IMG/VR virus record: IMGVR_UViG_3300047409_000613
Span: 1-52,110 of that record
Strand: one strand, 5' to 3'
Source: a virus
Length of the DNA stretch: 52,110 nt
Each line of letters starts with the position of its first letter. Positions within the stretch are counted from its first letter, which is position 1. The notes beneath the pieces were generated by a model. That model worked only from the letters and a program-made list of their open reading frames with translations, did no database searches and was not told the DNA's origin. Of this stretch, positions 2,799 through 34,741 are shown piece by piece. The position numbers were made by a program, and so were the translations under genes.

Positions 2799-3110
2799 CT
2801 AGTAGCCGTCACGCCTCGCCTGGTCGGCGAGCCAGGCCGGCCAATCGATGTCGACGTCGAACGTCCGCGGCCAGCCCTGGACGAACGCCGCCTTGAAGCG
2901 CTGGTGCAGACGGACCGCCGTGGCGTCGTCGAGCCCGGCCTCGAGCACGATCGCCAGCGCGAGCTGCGCCGGCCCGCTGCCGGCGTAGCCCCACTCGAAG
3001 CCGTCCGGGCTATGGTTCCAGAGCTGCTGCGATCGCGCCGGCGAGAGCAGCGTGCCGTCGACCCAGACTTCGCGCGTGTCGGCGTCGGGGCGCGTCCCGG
3101 TGATTCTCAT
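2799..3110 (-). CDS. DUF6166-like phage protein
   Basis: A 103-aa protein whose ATG overlaps the stop of the gene before it (ATGA at 3107-3110). The WNHSPDGFEWGYAGSGPAQ motif (about 32-50) followed by LALAI is the hallmark of the DUF6166 family, found in phages and mobile elements; its biochemical role is not known. It ends 60 bp before int and is the last of the tightly overlapped leftward genes. Confidence 0.7.
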   Translation of the reverse strand: MRITGTRPDADTREVWVDGTLLSPARSQQLWNHSPDGFEWGYAGSGPAQLALAIVLEAGLDDATAVRLHQRFKAAFVQGWPRTFDVDIDWPAWLADQARRDGY

Positions 3111-9680: not shown

Positions 9681-9952
9681 GGAAGCGGGTCATGACGGTC
9701 GTGGCGACGTGGCTGGCCGTCACCGCGCTGTTGATCGCGTCGCTTCGCGGCTACTACGGCCAGGAGAAACCCGTCCGCGAGACGCGCATGTGGAAGATCG
9801 CCGACAACGTGAACGGCGCGCGGGTCGCGGTGATTGACACCGAGGGTGTGTGTCTCTACGTCGTGACGGGCGAGGTCTACGCGCAAGGCACCGTGCCGGC
9901 GGTCGCGGCCGTGCCGAAGACGCAGCTGCCAAAAGGAACGGGCTGCCAATGA
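9677..9952 (+). CDS. Secreted or membrane-anchored protein, 91 aa
   Basis: GTG overlaps the previous stop. Residues 5-24 form a signal anchor (MTVVATWLAVTALLIASLRG), the rest is a small beta domain (MWKIADNVNGARVAVIDTEG) ending in Cys. Could be exported. Family not recognised. Confidence 0.58.
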   Translation: MRKRVMTVVATWLAVTALLIASLRGYYGQEKPVRETRMWKIADNVNGARVAVIDTEGVCLYVVTGEVYAQGTVPAVAAVPKTQLPKGTGCQ

Positions 9953-9993
9953 CGCCGCCGGCCGGCAAGTCGGTGATTTCAGAACGGGGATAG
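9949..9993 (+). CDS. Possible 14-aa leader or remnant
   Basis: ATG at 9949 overlaps the stop of the preceding gene (ATGA) but the frame stops after 14 codons. It may be a gene remnant or simply the edge of the non-coding stretch that follows. Confidence 0.2.
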   Translation: MTPPAGKSVISERG

Positions 9994-10366
9994 CCGAGGC
10001 ACGAGCCGCGAGCGCGGGAACGGACAAGACAGGGCGCCGTCCCGCGTGATGACCGGTGTGAGGCTAGGGCGCGAACGATGTCCCCCCATGGGACAGCCCG
10101 GGTACGTGAGAAGGGCTGATCGGCCTCCATGGTGACGCAGAGGGTACGGCCTCGCTGACGCGTCGGTGCCCAGGTGGAGCGGGTGCCACAAAAGATCGGC
10201 CGTCGGTTCGCCGCTCGCCCGGATGTGAGTAGGCCGAGAACGCCAGCGTGAGGTGGGGACAACAGCAGGGCCCTGCGAGGCGTGACTGCCGGGGGAGAGA
10301 CCCGGCGCGGAAACAAGTCGGGGCTCGCCGACCGCTGGCACGGTGACGAGCCCCCTCCCTGGCTAA
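9994..10366 (+). ncRNA. Candidate structured non-coding RNA
   Basis: No frame here looks like protein, and the only long frames are on the minus strand with shuffled Arg/Pro/Ser-rich content. On the plus strand hairpins follow one after another: CGCGGGA 10013-10019 with TCCCGCG 10040-10046; TGTCCC 10079-10084 with GGGACA 10090-10095; AGCCC 10095-10099 with GGGCT 10113-10117; long-range CCTCGCTG 10150-10157 with CAGC/GAGG 10244-10253; the palindrome GCAGGGCCCTGC 10265-10276; GCCGGG 10288-10293 with CCCGGC 10301-10306; and a closing 8-bp stem GGGGCTCG 10320-10327 with CGAGCCCC 10347-10354. It matches no RNA family I can recall (not tmRNA, RNase P, group I or II intron). Confidence 0.5.
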
Positions 10367-10834
10367 GTGGAGATTGCCGTGCTGCTGCAGTTTACCAAAG
10401 CGATGCGCATTGAGGAATCCCCCCACCGGACCCACGCCCGGACAGCGGTCGCCCTGGCGCACGCGGACGTCGAGCGCGCCGCGCTGCTGGCACGCCTCAC
10501 GGAGTTCCTGGACGTCGAGCTCGGCGAGCTGGTCCAGTCCGCGGGGCTCGCCGGCGCGATCCTTCGCCTGGTCGATGAGATCCGCGCGGAGCGGCCGCCG
10601 ACGCCGTTCGAGATCGCGCACGTCGCTCACGCGCGGACGCTGCAGCTCGCGCGGAGCCGCGTCCGGTGTCACGCGGTCGCGAACGGGCACACGCTCGGCG
10701 TGTGGCGGACGGATCCGGCACGCCCCGGCTGCGAAGAGGCGCGTTGTACGCGCTGCGGCGCCGCCGCGGCGATCCCTCTTGGGACGGCGCGCGAGCACCT
10801 GGCCGACGCGCTCCTGCGCGGGTGCGAGCGGTAG
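10367..10834 (+). CDS. Hypothetical protein with C-terminal zinc site, 155 aa
   Basis: Helical N-terminal two thirds (ARTAVALAHADVERAALLARL, residues 26-46) and a C-terminal CHAVANGHTLGVW..C..ARCTRCGA segment that should bind zinc. The start is uncertain: GTG 10367 (used here), GTG 10379 or ATG 10403 are all possible and none has a clear ribosome site, perhaps because the preceding RNA structure matters. Confidence 0.58.
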   Translation: MEIAVLLQFTKAMRIEESPHRTHARTAVALAHADVERAALLARLTEFLDVELGELVQSAGLAGAILRLVDEIRAERPPTPFEIAHVAHARTLQLARSRVRCHAVANGHTLGVWRTDPARPGCEEARCTRCGAAAAIPLGTAREHLADALLRGCER

Positions 10835-14143: not shown

Positions 14144-14179
14144 ATGCGGACGCATATGCGGACGCATCTGCGAACGCAC
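14144..14179. repeat. Tandem 12-mer repeats (candidate origin iterons)
   Basis: ATGCGGACGCAT occurs twice head to tail (14144-14155 and 14156-14167) and a degenerate third copy follows to 14179. They lie in the tail of the YdaU-type replication gene, as lambda iterons lie within gene O. Confidence 0.45.
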
Positions 14180-14226
14180 CCGCCGAGCATGGCTAGATCA
14201 CCGATCTGGGCATGCTCCAGCGATGC

Positions 14227-14255
14227 AAGTACGTAAGTACAAAGTACTTAAGTAC
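14227..14255. repeat. Four AAGTAC repeats (candidate origin element)
   Basis: AAGTAC at 14227, 14235, 14242 and 14250 is spaced by seven or eight bases in a locally AT-richer stretch, and further GTAC palindromes follow at 14259 and 14273. No gene covers 14197-14378 in a convincing frame. Together with the 12-mers this is the best origin candidate in the genome. Confidence 0.42.
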
Positions 14256-17292: not shown

Positions 17293-17925
17293 ATGACGAC
17301 ACATCCTGCGGGGGGGGCGACCACAATGAGCAGCAGCGCCGCGGCCGCCGATCGCCCGGGCCTGATCTACACGCGCTGTCGCGTCTGCACCTGCGCGCTC
17401 GGCCTCGACGACGACCGCACGCGCGGCGTCTGCGTCGATTGCGCGAATCGACCGGAGGGCAAGCGGCTCCTCGCGCGCGCGGTCGCACCCGGCGTCACGC
17501 CGACGGCCGCGCCGTCCAAGACGGCGGCGCCAACGGCCCCGCCGATCGCAGTCGCCGCGCCGCCGCCGGCGCAGGAGCGCCCCTTCTCGCCGGCGGAGAA
17601 GTCGCTCATCCGGCACATGCACCACGTCCTGCCCCCGGCGGACCTGTTGCGCGTGCTGAACGATCGGCTGCAGGCCGACGTCGGGCCCGGCGTGCCGCTC
17701 TGGACGCTCGAGCAGGTGCACGCCGAAACGACGACGCTGCAGCGGACGAGCGGCGCGAGCGATTGGGAGGGGCTGCGCCAGATCGTCCGCCTCGCGCGGC
17801 ACGGCGGCGTCCTCGATTCAATCACGGCCGAGGTGATCAACGACTTCGCCATGGTGTTCCAGCTCTCGTCGGCGCAGCTCATGACTCTGCGCGACGTCAT
17901 CCGCAGCGCAAAGGAGTCCGCATGA
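17293..17925 (+). CDS. Zinc-ribbon protein with helical C-terminal domain
   Basis: 210 aa from ATG 17293, or 199 from ATG 17326 after an eight-G tract. CRVC (about 30) and CVDC (about 50) form the ribbon; a Pro/Ala-rich linker (65-100) leads to a helical domain (105-210: LIRHMHHVLPPADLLRVLNDR, then LRQIVRLARHGG). The stop overlaps the ATPase start, and the three genes 17293-20746 look like one translated unit, so it may cooperate with the ATPase. Confidence 0.65.
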   Translation: MTTHPAGGATTMSSSAAAADRPGLIYTRCRVCTCALGLDDDRTRGVCVDCANRPEGKRLLARAVAPGVTPTAAPSKTAAPTAPPIAVAAPPPAQERPFSPAEKSLIRHMHHVLPPADLLRVLNDRLQADVGPGVPLWTLEQVHAETTTLQRTSGASDWEGLRQIVRLARHGGVLDSITAEVINDFAMVFQLSSAQLMTLRDVIRSAKESA

Positions 17926-18866
17926 TCGGCAAGCCCGTCTTCCGGCGCCAGGAGTTCGATACCGCGACGCTCGAGCTCGGCGGCGCGCCGATCGCGCTCT
18001 CGGCCTATGCGACCACGGGCCTCCGGATCGTCTGCGTCGGCCCGAGCGGCGCCGGCAAGACCAACGCCGGGCTCCTCATCGCCGAGCAGCTCGCGACGCA
18101 GGGCTGGATCTCCGTGCTGTTCGATCGCGAGGGCGACATCGGCGCGCTCTACGAACCCATGCGCGACGTCACGCACTTCGAGAATTACCTGCGCGGCCGC
18201 CATCACCCGATCCTTGTGGTGCCGGTGCGCCACACGGATGACTTCCTCCACTACGGGCGGACGGTCCAGCGCGTCGTCGAGGAGGACCGTCAGCCGGTCT
18301 TCCTGATGGTCGACGAGGGGCAGATGGTCAGCGCGTCCCGGAAGCGGAAGGAATCGATCGGCGAGGCCTCCGACCTGATGAACGATTTCACCGAGCGCGG
18401 GCGCAAACGGTCCCTCGACGTCTTCGTGACGGCGCACCGCTTCAGCGGCACGCTCCATCGCTCGGTCTTCGCGAACAAGAACCTGACCCTGATCGGCCGC
18501 CAGGAAGATCCGACCGCCTGGTCGGCGCTCGCGCCGCAGTTCAAGGGCTCGGCGATCGGCTATCCGGATCTCGCGGCGCTCGCGCCCGGGGAGTTCTTCT
18601 GCTTCGCGCGATCGGGGGTGGAGAAGATCCAGATGCCGATGGCAGATGCGCTCGCCGCGGTCGCCCCGCCGGCGACCGTCGTCCGCCAGGCGCTGCCCAG
18701 CACGTTTTCGCAGTGGGACCGGGCCATGCGCGAGCTGCCGACCGACCGGCTGCAGCGGCTGGACGACGCGGTCACGGGCGTGCTGGCGGCGATCGTCGGG
18801 CTCACGTTTCCGCAACTGGCGGCCGGTCGACGCGCGCGGCGTGAGGAACTGGAGGCCCGGCCGTGA
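17922..18866 (+). CDS. P-loop ATPase (HerA/FtsK-like or helicase-like)
   Basis: 314 aa from ATG 17922 with AAGGAG upstream. Walker A is GPSGAGKT (40-47), Walker B VFLMVDEGQ (D131, E132), and residues 150-215 (ERGRKRSLDVFVTAHR, NLTLIGRQEDP) look like sensor and arginine-finger elements of HerA/FtsK-type motor ATPases. No zinc or nuclease domain. Position beside the multi-HTH DNA-binding gene suggests an ATP-driven DNA-handling pair, for example replication initiation, helicase loading or DNA movement. Confidence 0.72.
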   Translation: MIGKPVFRRQEFDTATLELGGAPIALSAYATTGLRIVCVGPSGAGKTNAGLLIAEQLATQGWISVLFDREGDIGALYEPMRDVTHFENYLRGRHHPILVVPVRHTDDFLHYGRTVQRVVEEDRQPVFLMVDEGQMVSASRKRKESIGEASDLMNDFTERGRKRSLDVFVTAHRFSGTLHRSVFANKNLTLIGRQEDPTAWSALAPQFKGSAIGYPDLAALAPGEFFCFARSGVEKIQMPMADALAAVAPPATVVRQALPSTFSQWDRAMRELPTDRLQRLDDAVTGVLAAIVGLTFPQLAAGRRARREELEARP

Positions 18867-20746
18867 CCTGGCAGGCCTTCGTCCTCGAGCACGGGTGGCA
18901 CGCGCACGGCGCGCACCTGGCCGCGGTGCTCGAGCAGCCCCTGTTGGCGATCGCGCGCCTGCGCCAATCGGCCAGTTGCCGGCGACTCGCGAAGGCCAAA
19001 ACGTTCGGCGACCTCTTCGCGCTCTGGCGCGGGCGGCCGCCACGCGACGAGGAGTGGCCGGCGCCGCGGAAGATCGGCGGCGGCTATGAGTGGCTGGCGC
19101 CGGAGCTCGCGCTGCTCGCGTCGCTCGTCGGGCGCCTGGGCGCCGCGGAGATTGCGGGCGTCCTGACGACGCGCCTGCGGCGGCTGACCGGCGATCGCCG
19201 CGCGGTCCGGCCGCGCAATGCGATCTGGACCGCCTCCCAGCGCGTCGGCCTCATCGCCACCGACGTCGCCGGCGGGCTCACGGCGCACCAGGCCGGCCGC
19301 GAGATCGGCTGCGTGTCGATCATCTACAACGAGATCCGGCACGGACGGCTGAAGACCGTGCGCGTCGGCCGCCTCCTCGTCATCCCGCGCGACGAGTGGG
19401 CGCGGTGGAAGGGCACGCGGGTCTTCCCCCCGAAGGGCTACGTCCAGCTCTCGCGGCTGAAGCGGCCGCTCGGCATCCGGAGTGACAAGCTCTCGGAGTG
19501 GGCGCGGCTCGGCTACGTGCCGACGGCGATCCGCTGCAACCCGTACGGCGCGCGCGCGGCATCGACGATGTTCGGCACCTGGTGGATTGACCCGAAGATC
19601 GTCACGAAGCTCACCGCCGATCGCCGCGCCGGCCGCGCGATGCCCTGGTGGGGCCAGCCCGAGCCGGGCAACCTGAAGATCACCTGGACGCTCCTGCAGC
19701 AGCGCCAGCATCCCGCGCGGTGTGCCACGTGCCGCGCGATCTGGGGCCCCGCGGGCGCGCCGCGGACGTTCGACGACTACATGCAGCGGTATCCGCCGCT
19801 GGCCTTCGGCGCGAAGCGGCACCTCACGCGCGTGTGGTCGGACGGCCTGTCGGTCAGCGAGCTCGCGCGCGACGTCAACCTCCCCTCGTCGCTGGTGTTG
19901 TCCGCGATCCGGACCGGGGTCCTTCGCGCGACCCGCGTCGCCAGCCGGTATGTCATCACGCGCACCGACGCGACGCGCTGGAAGTTCCGGCGCTGTCCCA
20001 CGGGTCGCGGCCGGCACTGCTGGATGCAGATCAGCGCGGCGCGTCAGACATACGGGTTCAGCCGCGCGGAAATCGCCGCGCACATCAAGGCCGGTCGACT
20101 CACGTCGAAAATCGGCGCGTGCGGTCCGCAGCGGGGTCTTCGGTACGTGCTCCGCCAGCAGATCCGCGAGCTCCGGGAAACCTCGGGTTTCCCCGCCGCG
20201 GACGCCGCCCGGCGACTCGGGATCTCCGTCGCGCGCCTGAAGACGTTCGCGCGGTACGCGGACTGGCGCGATCCGCACCGCTACACCCTCGACGTCATCA
20301 CCACCATCCGGAAGCGAATGGAATCCGAGGCGGGGTTGACGATCGCCCAGGCCGCGCGGAAGCTCCGCAAGTCGGTCCGGTGGGTCGAGCGGGAGATCGC
20401 CAATGGCACCGCGCGGGTGTTGCGGACCCCGTTCAAGACGACGCGGCGCTATATCTCCGGGCCGATGTTCCGACGTCTACAGGCCGCGGTCACCCATCCC
20501 ACCCCCAGGCTGCGCTGGTCGTCGGAATGGCTGCTCGTGAGCGACGCGGCACTGTTGGCCGGCGTCTGCAGCAACACGGTGCAGCGCTGGGCGGATCTGG
20601 GCCAGGTCCGGATCCGCTTCAAGGCGCGCTTCCGTCGCTACCACCGCCGTTCGGTCATCGCGCGCGCGCGGCTGCATTGGACCACTGAACGCCGGCGCGG
20701 GCGCGCCCCCGCCCCCGCCTGGCTGCAGACCCCGGAGGCCGCGTGA
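18863..20746 (+). CDS. Large DNA-binding protein with about eight helix-turn-helix units
   Basis: 627 aa from GTG 18863, overlapping the ATPase stop. Residues about 78-130 resemble a SANT/GcrA-type unit (LVGRLGAAEIAGVLTTR, then NAIWTASQRVGL). Then come repeated excisionase/MerR-like winged units at about 138-182, 196-245, 328-373, 388-433, 441-480, 491-535 and 556-600. They share helix-turn-helix, a GRL or G-x-V turn, a basic wing and a closing aromatic. A CxxC pair (C287, C290) interrupts the series. Such a beads-on-a-string protein should wrap or scan a long or repeated DNA site. No catalytic motif seen. Confidence 0.8.
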   Translation: MTWQAFVLEHGWHAHGAHLAAVLEQPLLAIARLRQSASCRRLAKAKTFGDLFALWRGRPPRDEEWPAPRKIGGGYEWLAPELALLASLVGRLGAAEIAGVLTTRLRRLTGDRRAVRPRNAIWTASQRVGLIATDVAGGLTAHQAGREIGCVSIIYNEIRHGRLKTVRVGRLLVIPRDEWARWKGTRVFPPKGYVQLSRLKRPLGIRSDKLSEWARLGYVPTAIRCNPYGARAASTMFGTWWIDPKIVTKLTADRRAGRAMPWWGQPEPGNLKITWTLLQQRQHPARCATCRAIWGPAGAPRTFDDYMQRYPPLAFGAKRHLTRVWSDGLSVSELARDVNLPSSLVLSAIRTGVLRATRVASRYVITRTDATRWKFRRCPTGRGRHCWMQISAARQTYGFSRAEIAAHIKAGRLTSKIGACGPQRGLRYVLRQQIRELRETSGFPAADAARRLGISVARLKTFARYADWRDPHRYTLDVITTIRKRMESEAGLTIAQAARKLRKSVRWVEREIANGTARVLRTPFKTTRRYISGPMFRRLQAAVTHPTPRLRWSSEWLLVSDAALLAGVCSNTVQRWADLGQVRIRFKARFRRYHRRSVIARARLHWTTERRRGRAPAPAWLQTPEAA

Positions 20747-22450: not shown

Positions 22451-22479
22451 CCGTGCACTAAACTATTGGGGTCGGTTTG

Positions 22480-22527
22480 CGACTGGGGGTCAGGGGGTCG
22501 CTGGTTCGAATCCAGTCATCCCGACCA
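22480..22527 (+). other. 3' half of a tRNA-Pro(GGG) gene (att-like)
   Basis: GA plus the anticodon loop CTGGGGG, 3' stem TCAGG, variable GGGTC, a T arm GCTGG/TTCGAAT/CCAGT, acceptor 3' strand CATCCCG, discriminator A and CCA read perfectly as the 3' half of a tRNA-Pro. The 5' half (CGGGATG and D arm) is missing upstream, so this cannot be a working tRNA. It is the same kind of fragment, and the same length, as the attP core beside int at 1457-1504, but no integrase gene is near. Confidence 0.8.
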
Positions 22528-23560: not shown

Positions 23561-24518
23561 ATGGCCACGCCCAGGCGGCCGTACGTCTCGATTCGGCTCG
23601 GGACGTTCGACGACGCGATCGCCGCCGGCGTCTCGAGCGGCGGCGTGTTACTGCTGGCACGCCTACTGACGCATCGCGACAAGCGCTCGGTCCCTGGGCT
23701 TCTCCGGTCTGGCCTCGCTGGTTTGAGCGAATCACTCGGACAGTCGAAGACGGCGACGCGGCGCGGGCTCATCGAACTCGAACGCGCCCACCTGGTGCGT
23801 CTCGACGCCCCCGCGCGGGTGCTCTATGTGGAGGGCGCGATCGACGCGGATCCCCCGCGGACAGAAAACAGCGTCCGCGGCATGGCGGCCCAGGTGCGCG
23901 AACTGCCGGCGACCTCCCCGGTCACTCTGGCCGTCCGTCGCGCCATCGAGGCCGCGCTCTCGGAAGGCGACAAGGCGTCCGCCTGGCTGGCGACGTGGCG
24001 CGAGCTCGCCGGCCCGGACTCAGGCCCTGACCCAAGCCCTGAGTCAGGGCCTGACCCAGGGCCGGACTCAGGCCCTCACGCGCGCGCGCGTACCACCACC
24101 ACCACCGATCCCGAGATCCGATCCCGAGATCCGAGATCCGAGACCCGCGCGCGCGGCGCTGGCGGGCGAGGGCGGCGCCGGCGACGTCGTCGCGGTGGCG
24201 GCGAAGACCAACGGCACGGGCCTGCGTGAACGCTTCGACGCGTTCTGGCAGGCGTATCCCCGGAAAGTCGCGAAGGATGGCGCGTGGCGCGCCTGGCAGA
24301 AGCGGAAGCCGAGTGCGGAACTGCTGCAGCAGATCGTCGCGGCGCTTGCCTGGCAAGTACACCAGGACACCTGGCTGAAGGACGGCGGCCGCTACATTCC
24401 GCACCCGGCCACGTGGCTCAATGCCGGCCGGTGGCAGGACGAACCGAGCAAGGGCCCGCGGCTGAACGATCGCACGCTCGCGATCGGCCGGGCCGGCGAG
24501 GAGTTTCTCCGATCATGA
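23561..24518 (+). CDS. Replication protein broken by a frameshift in simple repeats
   Basis: The N-terminal part (from ATG 23561) is a winged-helix replication domain (SSGGVLLLARLLTHRD, LAGLSESLGQSKTATRRGLIELE). The C-terminal part, in a frame one base further on, is the typical end of phage replisome organisers: RFDAFWQAYPRKVAKDGAWR, then YIPHPATWLNAGRWQDE, ending at TGA 24518. The frames cross in 24010-24160, which contains imperfect CTGAC repeats, CGCGCGCGCGCG, five ACC and copies of GAGATCC. Unshifted, frame one ends at 24229 as a 222-aa protein with an Arg-rich end. Confidence 0.65.
24030..24160. repeat. Simple-sequence repeats at the frameshift
   Basis: This stretch holds a six-unit CG run, five ACC units and repeated GATCCCGAGATCC/GAGATCC units. 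Loss or gain of a unit whose length is not a multiple of three would change the reading frame of the replication protein. Confidence 0.6.
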
Positions 24519-25413: not shown

Positions 25414-25760
25414 CGGACCAGGTCCGCACGTCCGGCGATCTTCGCGTGCCGTTCACCACGGCGCTCGACGCGTTCAGCGTGCCGGCAGTCGTGACGCCCC
25501 CCGAGGGCACGCCGATCGAGACGCGCGGGATCTGGGTCAGTCCGACGACCGAGAACAGGCCCGGTTCCATCGACCTGAAGCGCCGCGAACCGACGCGGAT
25601 CCTGGCCCTTCCGCTCGCCGACGTGCCGAGCGTGCCACGTGGAACGGCCATCGTGGCGCCCGAGATGGACGGGCTCGAGGCGCGGCGCTGGCGCGTGGAG
25701 GGGTTCGACCGCCTCGAGGTGGACCACGTCCGCGTCATCGTCGCCGAGGGCGCGCCGTGA
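25410..25760 (+). CDS. Paralogue of the head-tail joining protein
   Basis: 116 aa from GTG 25410. It matches the 111-aa product of 34406-34741 almost throughout, about 70% identity by eye: SGDLRVPF..AL.AF.VPA, TRGIWVSP, RREP.R.LALPLADVP and RWRVEGF. The duplicate sits at the end of the early block before terminase, outside the head cluster. N-terminal residues differ (TDQVRT insert). Confidence 0.78.
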   Translation: MTDQVRTSGDLRVPFTTALDAFSVPAVVTPPEGTPIETRGIWVSPTTENRPGSIDLKRREPTRILALPLADVPSVPRGTAIVAPEMDGLEARRWRVEGFDRLEVDHVRVIVAEGAP

Positions 25761-34405: not shown

Positions 34406-34741
34406 GTGAGCGGCGATCTCCGGGTCCCGTTCGCGACGGCGCTCGAGGCGTTCGCGGTACCGGCGACCGTCACGGTGCCCGGCGGCGGGCCCCTCATCAC
34501 GCGCGGGATCTGGGTCTCGCCGCTGACGCAGGACATGCCCGGATCCGGCGGGGTCCGGCGCCGGGAGCCGAAGCGGGTGCTGGCGCTGCCGCTCGCGGAC
34601 GTGCCGACGGTGCCGCGCGACACCGCGATCGTGGCGCCGGAGATGGCGGGCCTGACGGCCCAGCGCTGGCGGGTGGAGGGGTTCGAGAGCGTCGAAGTCG
34701 ATCACGTGCGCGTGATCGTCGTGGCGGATCCGGGGGCGTAA
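34406..34741 (+). CDS. Head-tail joining protein (paralogue of 25410-25760)
   Basis: 111 aa from GTG 34406. Beta-rich protein in the place of lambda FI/FII. Core motifs ALPLADVPTVPRDTAIVAPEM and RWRVEGFESVEVDHVRV are shared with the early-region copy. Role in head completion or connector binding is inferred from position. Confidence 0.72.
   Translation: MSGDLRVPFATALEAFAVPATVTVPGGGPLITRGIWVSPLTQDMPGSGGVRRREPKRVLALPLADVPTVPRDTAIVAPEMAGLTAQRWRVEGFESVEVDHVRVIVVADPGA

Follow-up and report, generated by a model that had tools for sequence, protein, structure and literature searches.

FtsK/HerA ATPases pump DNA. The small DNA-binding proteins BldC and RdfS form head-to-tail filaments on DNA (PMC5859096, PMC11963761), and HerA/FtsK ATPases recur in defence loci together with fast-evolving winged-helix proteins (PMC10853773, PMC12839542). 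Here we describe a locus of three genes, T, A and H, in the IMG/VR virus record IMGVR_UViG_3300047409_000613 (positions 1 to 52,110; "the window" is this whole stretch of 52,110 bp). A is an FtsK/HerA-type ATPase, H a chain of about seven excisionase-type helix-turn-helix (HTH) units by sequence and model, and T a third member that always accompanies them apart from one truncated locus. The trio, which sequence comparison indicates is co-inherited as one unit, is found in phages, conjugative elements and plasmids. We propose that the product of this mobile-DNA cassette is a DNA motor that is directed to a site and acts on DNA of the element itself, a reading to which we give a probability of about 45%. 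T-A-H was not found in the literature or libraries searched, where the theme of HerA/FtsK capture was. On this comparison the trio, the seven-unit chain and T appear to be undescribed, while A and H each fall in a known fold or superfamily. The features of the cassette are as follows:

17326-17925, + strand: gene T, the third gene of the cassette, 199 amino acids (aa), no known family; directly upstream of A in all loci but one
17922-18866, + strand: gene A, FtsK/HerA-type P-loop ATPase, 314 aa, ATG start (full-domain VIA matches, viral-library matches, hhalign 99%)
18039-18065, + strand: Walker A of A, GPSGAGKTN, residues 40-48 (alignment of A homologues)
18294-18320, + strand: Walker B of A, PVFLMVDEG, residues 125-133 (D131 and E132 invariant)
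18863-20746, + strand: gene H, multi-HTH DNA-binding protein, 627 aa, GTG start (AlphaFold2 (AF2), repeat test, HTH_17)
18869-18964, + strand: N-terminal helical segment of H, residues 3-34 (AF2 helices 3-10, 16-23, 27-34)
19097-19243, + strand: SANT-like three-helix segment of H, residues 79-127 (AF2; without family match)
19274-19414, + strand: winged-helix unit A of H, residues 138-184 (AF2; A~C repeat 97%)
19436-19627, + strand: winged-helix unit B, residues 192-255, recognition helix conserved (AF2 fold only)
19628-19840, + strand: highly conserved centre of H, residues 256-326, with H283/C287/C290/H320, a probable zinc knuckle (30/30 homologues identical)
19844-19990, + strand: winged-helix unit C, residues 328-376, excisionase type (TIGR01764; BldC/Xis fold matches)
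20021-20185, + strand: winged-helix unit D, residues 387-441 (AF2; repeat signal weak)
20189-20329, + strand: HTH unit E, residues 443-489, no clear wing (AF2; E~F 30%)
20336-20494, + strand: winged-helix unit F, residues 492-544 (pSK1 Par, RacA and MerR fold matches)
20528-20692, + strand: winged-helix unit G, residues 556-610 (HTH_17 5e-10, above the Pfam cut-off)

The loci of 31 relatives were gathered through A; an H-only query of viral contigs gave none. In all 31, which belong to phages, conjugative elements and plasmids of Pseudomonadota, H is next to A, and in 30 of them T lies upstream of A, the sole exception being cut by the contig start. Clustering of the open reading frames (ORFs) around these relatives left three families that recur everywhere, namely T, A and H, and for this reason T is counted as part of the unit. 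The first-pass annotation had described a two-gene unit, an ATPase translationally coupled to a 627-aa protein; its coordinates were right, the two genes overlap by 4 nt in the window phage and their adjacency is kept in every relative found, but T was missed. Overlaps of 4 nt are also common elsewhere (A/H in 13 of 29 loci, T/A in 15 of 28), and in a few loci a small gene lies between A and H, with a gap of ~380 nt. In pairwise blastn, 305 locus pairs could be aligned over the trio and less than 300 nt aligned outside it in 270 of these; therefore, T-A-H travels as a cassette. Distances co-vary (Spearman 0.66-0.76).

The T-A-H order is present in viral contigs, in genomes of Beta-, Gamma- and Alphaproteobacteria and in three plasmids. 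Of 18 viral records, 7 gave a match to GpA terminase, and a 16.9-kb segment is 99.99% identical in two genera (L024/L025). The cassette occurred in 3 of 399 genomes drawn from the order Burkholderiales, two of which (including the centre) were known beforehand, and tblastn with A and H against 50,697 phage records gave no match. Two adjacent short H-like ORFs (~290 and ~315 aa) with no adjacent ATPase were seen in L064:658-2510 and L065:771-2623, both small contigs of one genome.

H is strongly basic (isoelectric point 11.65). Its AF2 model, built on a 12-sequence alignment with a mean predicted local distance difference test score (pLDDT) of 78.8, shows seven HTH units of the excisionase/MerR type in a row, six of them winged; the predicted template modelling score is low (0.34) and the placement of one unit relative to another is not fixed by the model. 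The figure of about seven separate winged-helix units given earlier is thus borne out by the predicted fold and also by the repeats seen by hhalign. When sub-alignments of the units were compared with each other, probabilities were 97% for A~C, 89% for C~F, 32% for A~F, 30% for E~F and 24% for C~G, against a maximum of 1.0% in 270 reversed or permuted controls. The signal of unit D is weak (2-8%), and no repeat was detectable between unit B and the others by hhalign, so that this unit is recognised by its predicted fold only. HTH_17 matches are present in all 12 homologues scanned with Pfam; PF12728 scores 39.9 bits on unit G, above its curated cut-off, and TIGR01764 34.2 bits on unit C, also above cut-off. 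In VIA-align against solved structures, units C and F gave Z scores of 7-8.6, over 50-61 residues, with BldC-DNA, pSK1 Par, Pukovnik Xis, RacA and MerR; RdfS was also among the matches of H. Searches of PDB sequences with the H profile gave short or marginal matches only. The further SANT/GcrA-like unit proposed at first reading survives as a predicted three-helix segment at residues 79-127, without a match to that or another family.

Between units B and C, residues H283, C287, C290 and H320 are unchanged in 30 of 30 homologues, a pattern that makes the centre (residues 256-326) a probable zinc site. The number of units appears constant, and only two Variovorax forms carry long C-terminal extensions.

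A is an FtsK/HerA-type ATPase, by sequence and model. Its homologues share a Walker A of the form GPxGxGKTN, and both A and H have high codon-use scores in gene calling. Of 12 members scanned with Pfam, 10 matched DUF87/HerA, weakly (best E 0.017), and the family matched AAA_22 at E 5.8e-05; hhalign against a set of HerA-like proteins of phages and mobile genetic elements gave 99% (E 6e-18). The structural model, of low pLDDT (57), gave domain-wide VIA matches to B204, HerA, VirB4 and TcpA, with Z 8-9 over 174-197 residues for B204, HerA and VirB4, whereas only ~107 residues of RAD51 proteins align. Corticovirus NTPase and A32-type packaging ATPases were among the matches in a viral structure library. 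PDB sequences gave the A profile short or marginal matches only. With only ~35 residues ahead of the Walker A strand, A is without the HAS-barrel of HerA proper. A PHROG profile (2666) labels it "terminase large subunit", which we judge to be a loose superfamily match; a role as packaging motor was rejected, the phage having its own TerS and GpA-type TerL and plasmids also carrying T-A-H.

T has a conserved helical core (~residues 87-193). Many copies carry an N-terminal CxxC...CxxC ribbon-like stretch, which is missing from some homologues. It gave no Pfam match and no match to PDB sequences.

The surroundings of the cassette have in common that they are early DNA-processing regions of mobile DNA. 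In the window, its companions in a gene cluster that runs rightward include a Cas4-type exonuclease and RusA. An integrase or serine recombinase directly follows H in L026, L038, L041 and L049, and DnaB or primase genes are near in L036, L048 and L022. In G232, DnaB is directly upstream; its apparent fusion with T was set aside as a likely frameshift, because the H of this genome is frameshifted too, and only the adjacency was used. The Burkholderia cenocepacia plasmid pTY921B carries T-A-H on a backbone of the integrative and conjugative element (ICE) type (ParB, PFL_4669, SSB, MobH, TraD), in the ParB-to-SSB region and 2.4 kb from the ParB gene, and has both ParA and ParB genes. ICE genes adjoin the cassette in L050. 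In a Variovorax plasmid (L052:9577-18362) the cassette comes right after plasmid-borne DNA gyrase B and A and before thymidylate synthase. A related phage (L038:1-100 and 2927-3026) bears the signature of a diversity-generating retroelement, with 16 of 16 variable-template mismatches on template A, and reverse-transcriptase-like genes were also seen in L026, L033, L041 and L046.

That A and H form a joint ATP-driven DNA machine, as first suggested from the sequence, is likely, since the separate folding of the units and the constant neighbourhood both held when checked. Distant phage proteins fuse the two types: in L035, L039 and MW202482 (annotated "hera helicase") a HerA-like ATPase is followed in one chain by tandem C-terminal repeats, winged-helix-like on our own reading of the sequences, and this fusion argues that an ATPase and a DNA-binding array work together. 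In L035 (4198-5973) and L039 (3521-5299) it is a second HerA-like ATPase, encoded within ~2 kb of T-A-H. The HerA-like proteins of L071/L072 show no such obvious repeats.

We hypothesize that H would occupy a single long stretch of duplex as the covalent counterpart of a head-to-tail filament of Xis, BldC or RdfS, bending and marking the DNA; if each unit takes up about one helical turn, as in BldC, the stretch may span 70-90 bp. Specificity of the outer units would differ from element to element. In a post hoc test with units A and C-G pooled and related sequences treated as independent, variability at exposed positions was higher in the recognition helices (2.09 bits) than in the other helices (1.48 bits; p=0.0035), unlike unit B and the zinc-like centre, which are conserved; such variability would fit different DNA targets in different elements. 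A may be recruited through T or through the conserved centre of H; as a ring, it would then spend ATP on moving along the bound DNA or on remodelling it. The substrate would most likely be DNA of the element itself, in connection with its excision, replication or segregation, because phage copies lie in early or recombination-end clusters and the copy of one conjugative-type plasmid in the ParB-to-SSB region. The role may lie in excision/segregation, roadblock clearing or defence.

Several points weigh against the proposal. Neither repeat nor word searches found a binding site for H: no repeat array was seen near T-A-H in the window, and no 9-mer array above shuffles. The model of A is poor, and contacts among A, T and H, like DNA translocation by A, are putative. 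The recognition-helix test carries the limits given above, and units F and G fall outside its trend. HerA/FtsK ATPases with winged helices are also found in defence systems, and the carriers include some large plasmids for which excision is not known.

Element-borne defence or superinfection exclusion, in which H would recognise incoming rival DNA and A would capture or pump it as in the HerA/FtsK capture systems that have been proposed, is unlikely in our estimate. It draws on a match of A to PADLOC Mad8 (4.6e-11), a match of one H unit to Mad1, the recurrence of HerA/FtsK with fast-evolving winged-helix proteins in such loci and the variable recognition helices of H. However, the Mad8 profile also matches in 14 of 14 control genomes, the phage copies are inside early gene clusters, and no nuclease or effector is conserved alongside, T, A and H alone recurring in all loci. 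Assignment to MADS itself was rejected, as Mad8/Mad1-like matches are the only ones among the genes scanned and there is no other conserved neighbour. We regard the host-chromosome targeting that the first-pass annotation had entertained as unproved, and note that the recognition helices vary between elements. Segregation or positioning, with H as a centromere-binding protein and A as a motor that moves or resolves copies, would suit the match of unit F to the pSK1 Par centromere-binding domain and RacA, the plasmids among the carriers, the ParB gene close to the pTY921B cassette, and FtsK, a cellular segregation motor of the same superfamily as A. We regard it as distinctly unlikely, since A is not of the ParA, ParM or TubZ type, no adjoining repeat array was seen in the window and pTY921B is already provided with ParA and ParB genes. 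For the same lack of a ParA/ParM/TubZ NTPase, a ParABS-type system is not supported, nor, in its classical form, is the DNA partition considered earlier.

Replication initiation or helicase loading, with H binding the origin, had also been put forward, and DnaB or primase genes do lie near in several loci (directly upstream in G232; also L036 and L048). Here we consider it very unlikely: the window phage has separate initiator-type genes of its own (23561-24518), with short tandem repeats in a linker, and no repeat array was seen near T-A-H. The idea that the pair binds a repeated DNA region fared no better in the relatives, where a 9-mer array beside the cassette is marginal in two of 29 loci and not the rule; no over-represented word resembling the FtsK-orienting polar sequences (KOPS) was found. 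Finally, H could be a large DNA-bending architectural or transcription regulator that A only remodels or removes. All its units resemble regulators and excisionases, yet this alone leaves the constant HerA-type partner and the fixed trio unexplained, and we hold it, too, to be very unlikely. A recombination directionality factor (Xis) was rejected given the 627 aa and ~seven units of H and the presence of an adjacent integrase in some loci only.

The window phage also offers observations outside the cassette. Both ends of the record share 121 identical bases, because of which the assembly is probably circular and complete; the genome is siphophage-like, with TerS and TerL genes besides integrase-like and tail-type ones. 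A stretch that looks like the 3′ half of a tRNA-Pro (22474-22527, ending GGTTCGAATCCAGTCATCCCGACCA), 1.8 kb past T-A-H, is a likely attP core, though ~20 kb from the integrase-like gene (1503-2738). The replication-initiator-like protein appears split over two frames (23561-24229 and 24195-24518), where a frameshift is possible, and its linker holds tandem repeats of 12 and 7 nt (24011-24147), like lambda O; this region is an origin candidate. Short palindromic tandem repeats in the gap after a DUF1376 gene (14144-14255; ATGCGGACGCAT x2.9 and AAGTACGTAAGTACA x1.9) are a possible operator or origin. A small gene is duplicated within the phage as 300-nt copies, 74% identical (25433-25732 and 34411-34710). 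A purine-rich stretch of ~400 nt without a called gene (9952-10367) has many hairpin-like motifs; the idea of a structured RNA at 9975-10366 was rejected, as the folding energy is no better than that of shuffles and Rfam gives no match.

We consider doubtful the stronger claim that phages, conjugative elements and plasmids share in T-A-H a new class of site-directed DNA motor driven by ATP, with a covalent string of seven winged HTH units, naturally variable in its outer units, that places an FtsK/HerA-type ring on an element-specific sequence. That one undescribed trio is kept by mobile DNA of three very different sorts argues for an unrecognised shared need. If the claim is true, T-A-H would be a compact model for the targeting of FtsK/HerA-type motors, and H a natural reader of long DNA sites whose specificity differs between elements.

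Compared with described systems, A shares the P-loop, the DE of Walker B and the core fold with HerA, VirB4, TcpA and the B204/P9/A32 group; relative to HerA, it is too short for the N-terminal HAS-barrel and is encoded in a trio without a nuclease. Where the L071/L072 proteins have IATQ, A has FVTA(H/T). HerA/FtsK capture systems of the DndFGH type and Mad8 of MADS likewise encode a HerA/FtsK-type ATPase with winged-helix proteins on mobile DNA, but their HTH type differs, as does T, and no nuclease, kinase or methylase is conserved with T-A-H. The fused proteins of L035, L039 and MW202482 have an ATPase domain related to A (hhalign 99%) and a tandem array, yet this array consists of two repeats of a different type fused to the ATPase, whereas H is a separate chain of ~seven excisionase-type units and is accompanied by T. 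BldC (68 residues), lambda Xis and RdfS resemble H in the fold of the unit and in the potential for an array of such units along DNA; they are single-unit proteins that oligomerise, whereas H is, by sequence and model, a covalent chain with an ATPase partner.

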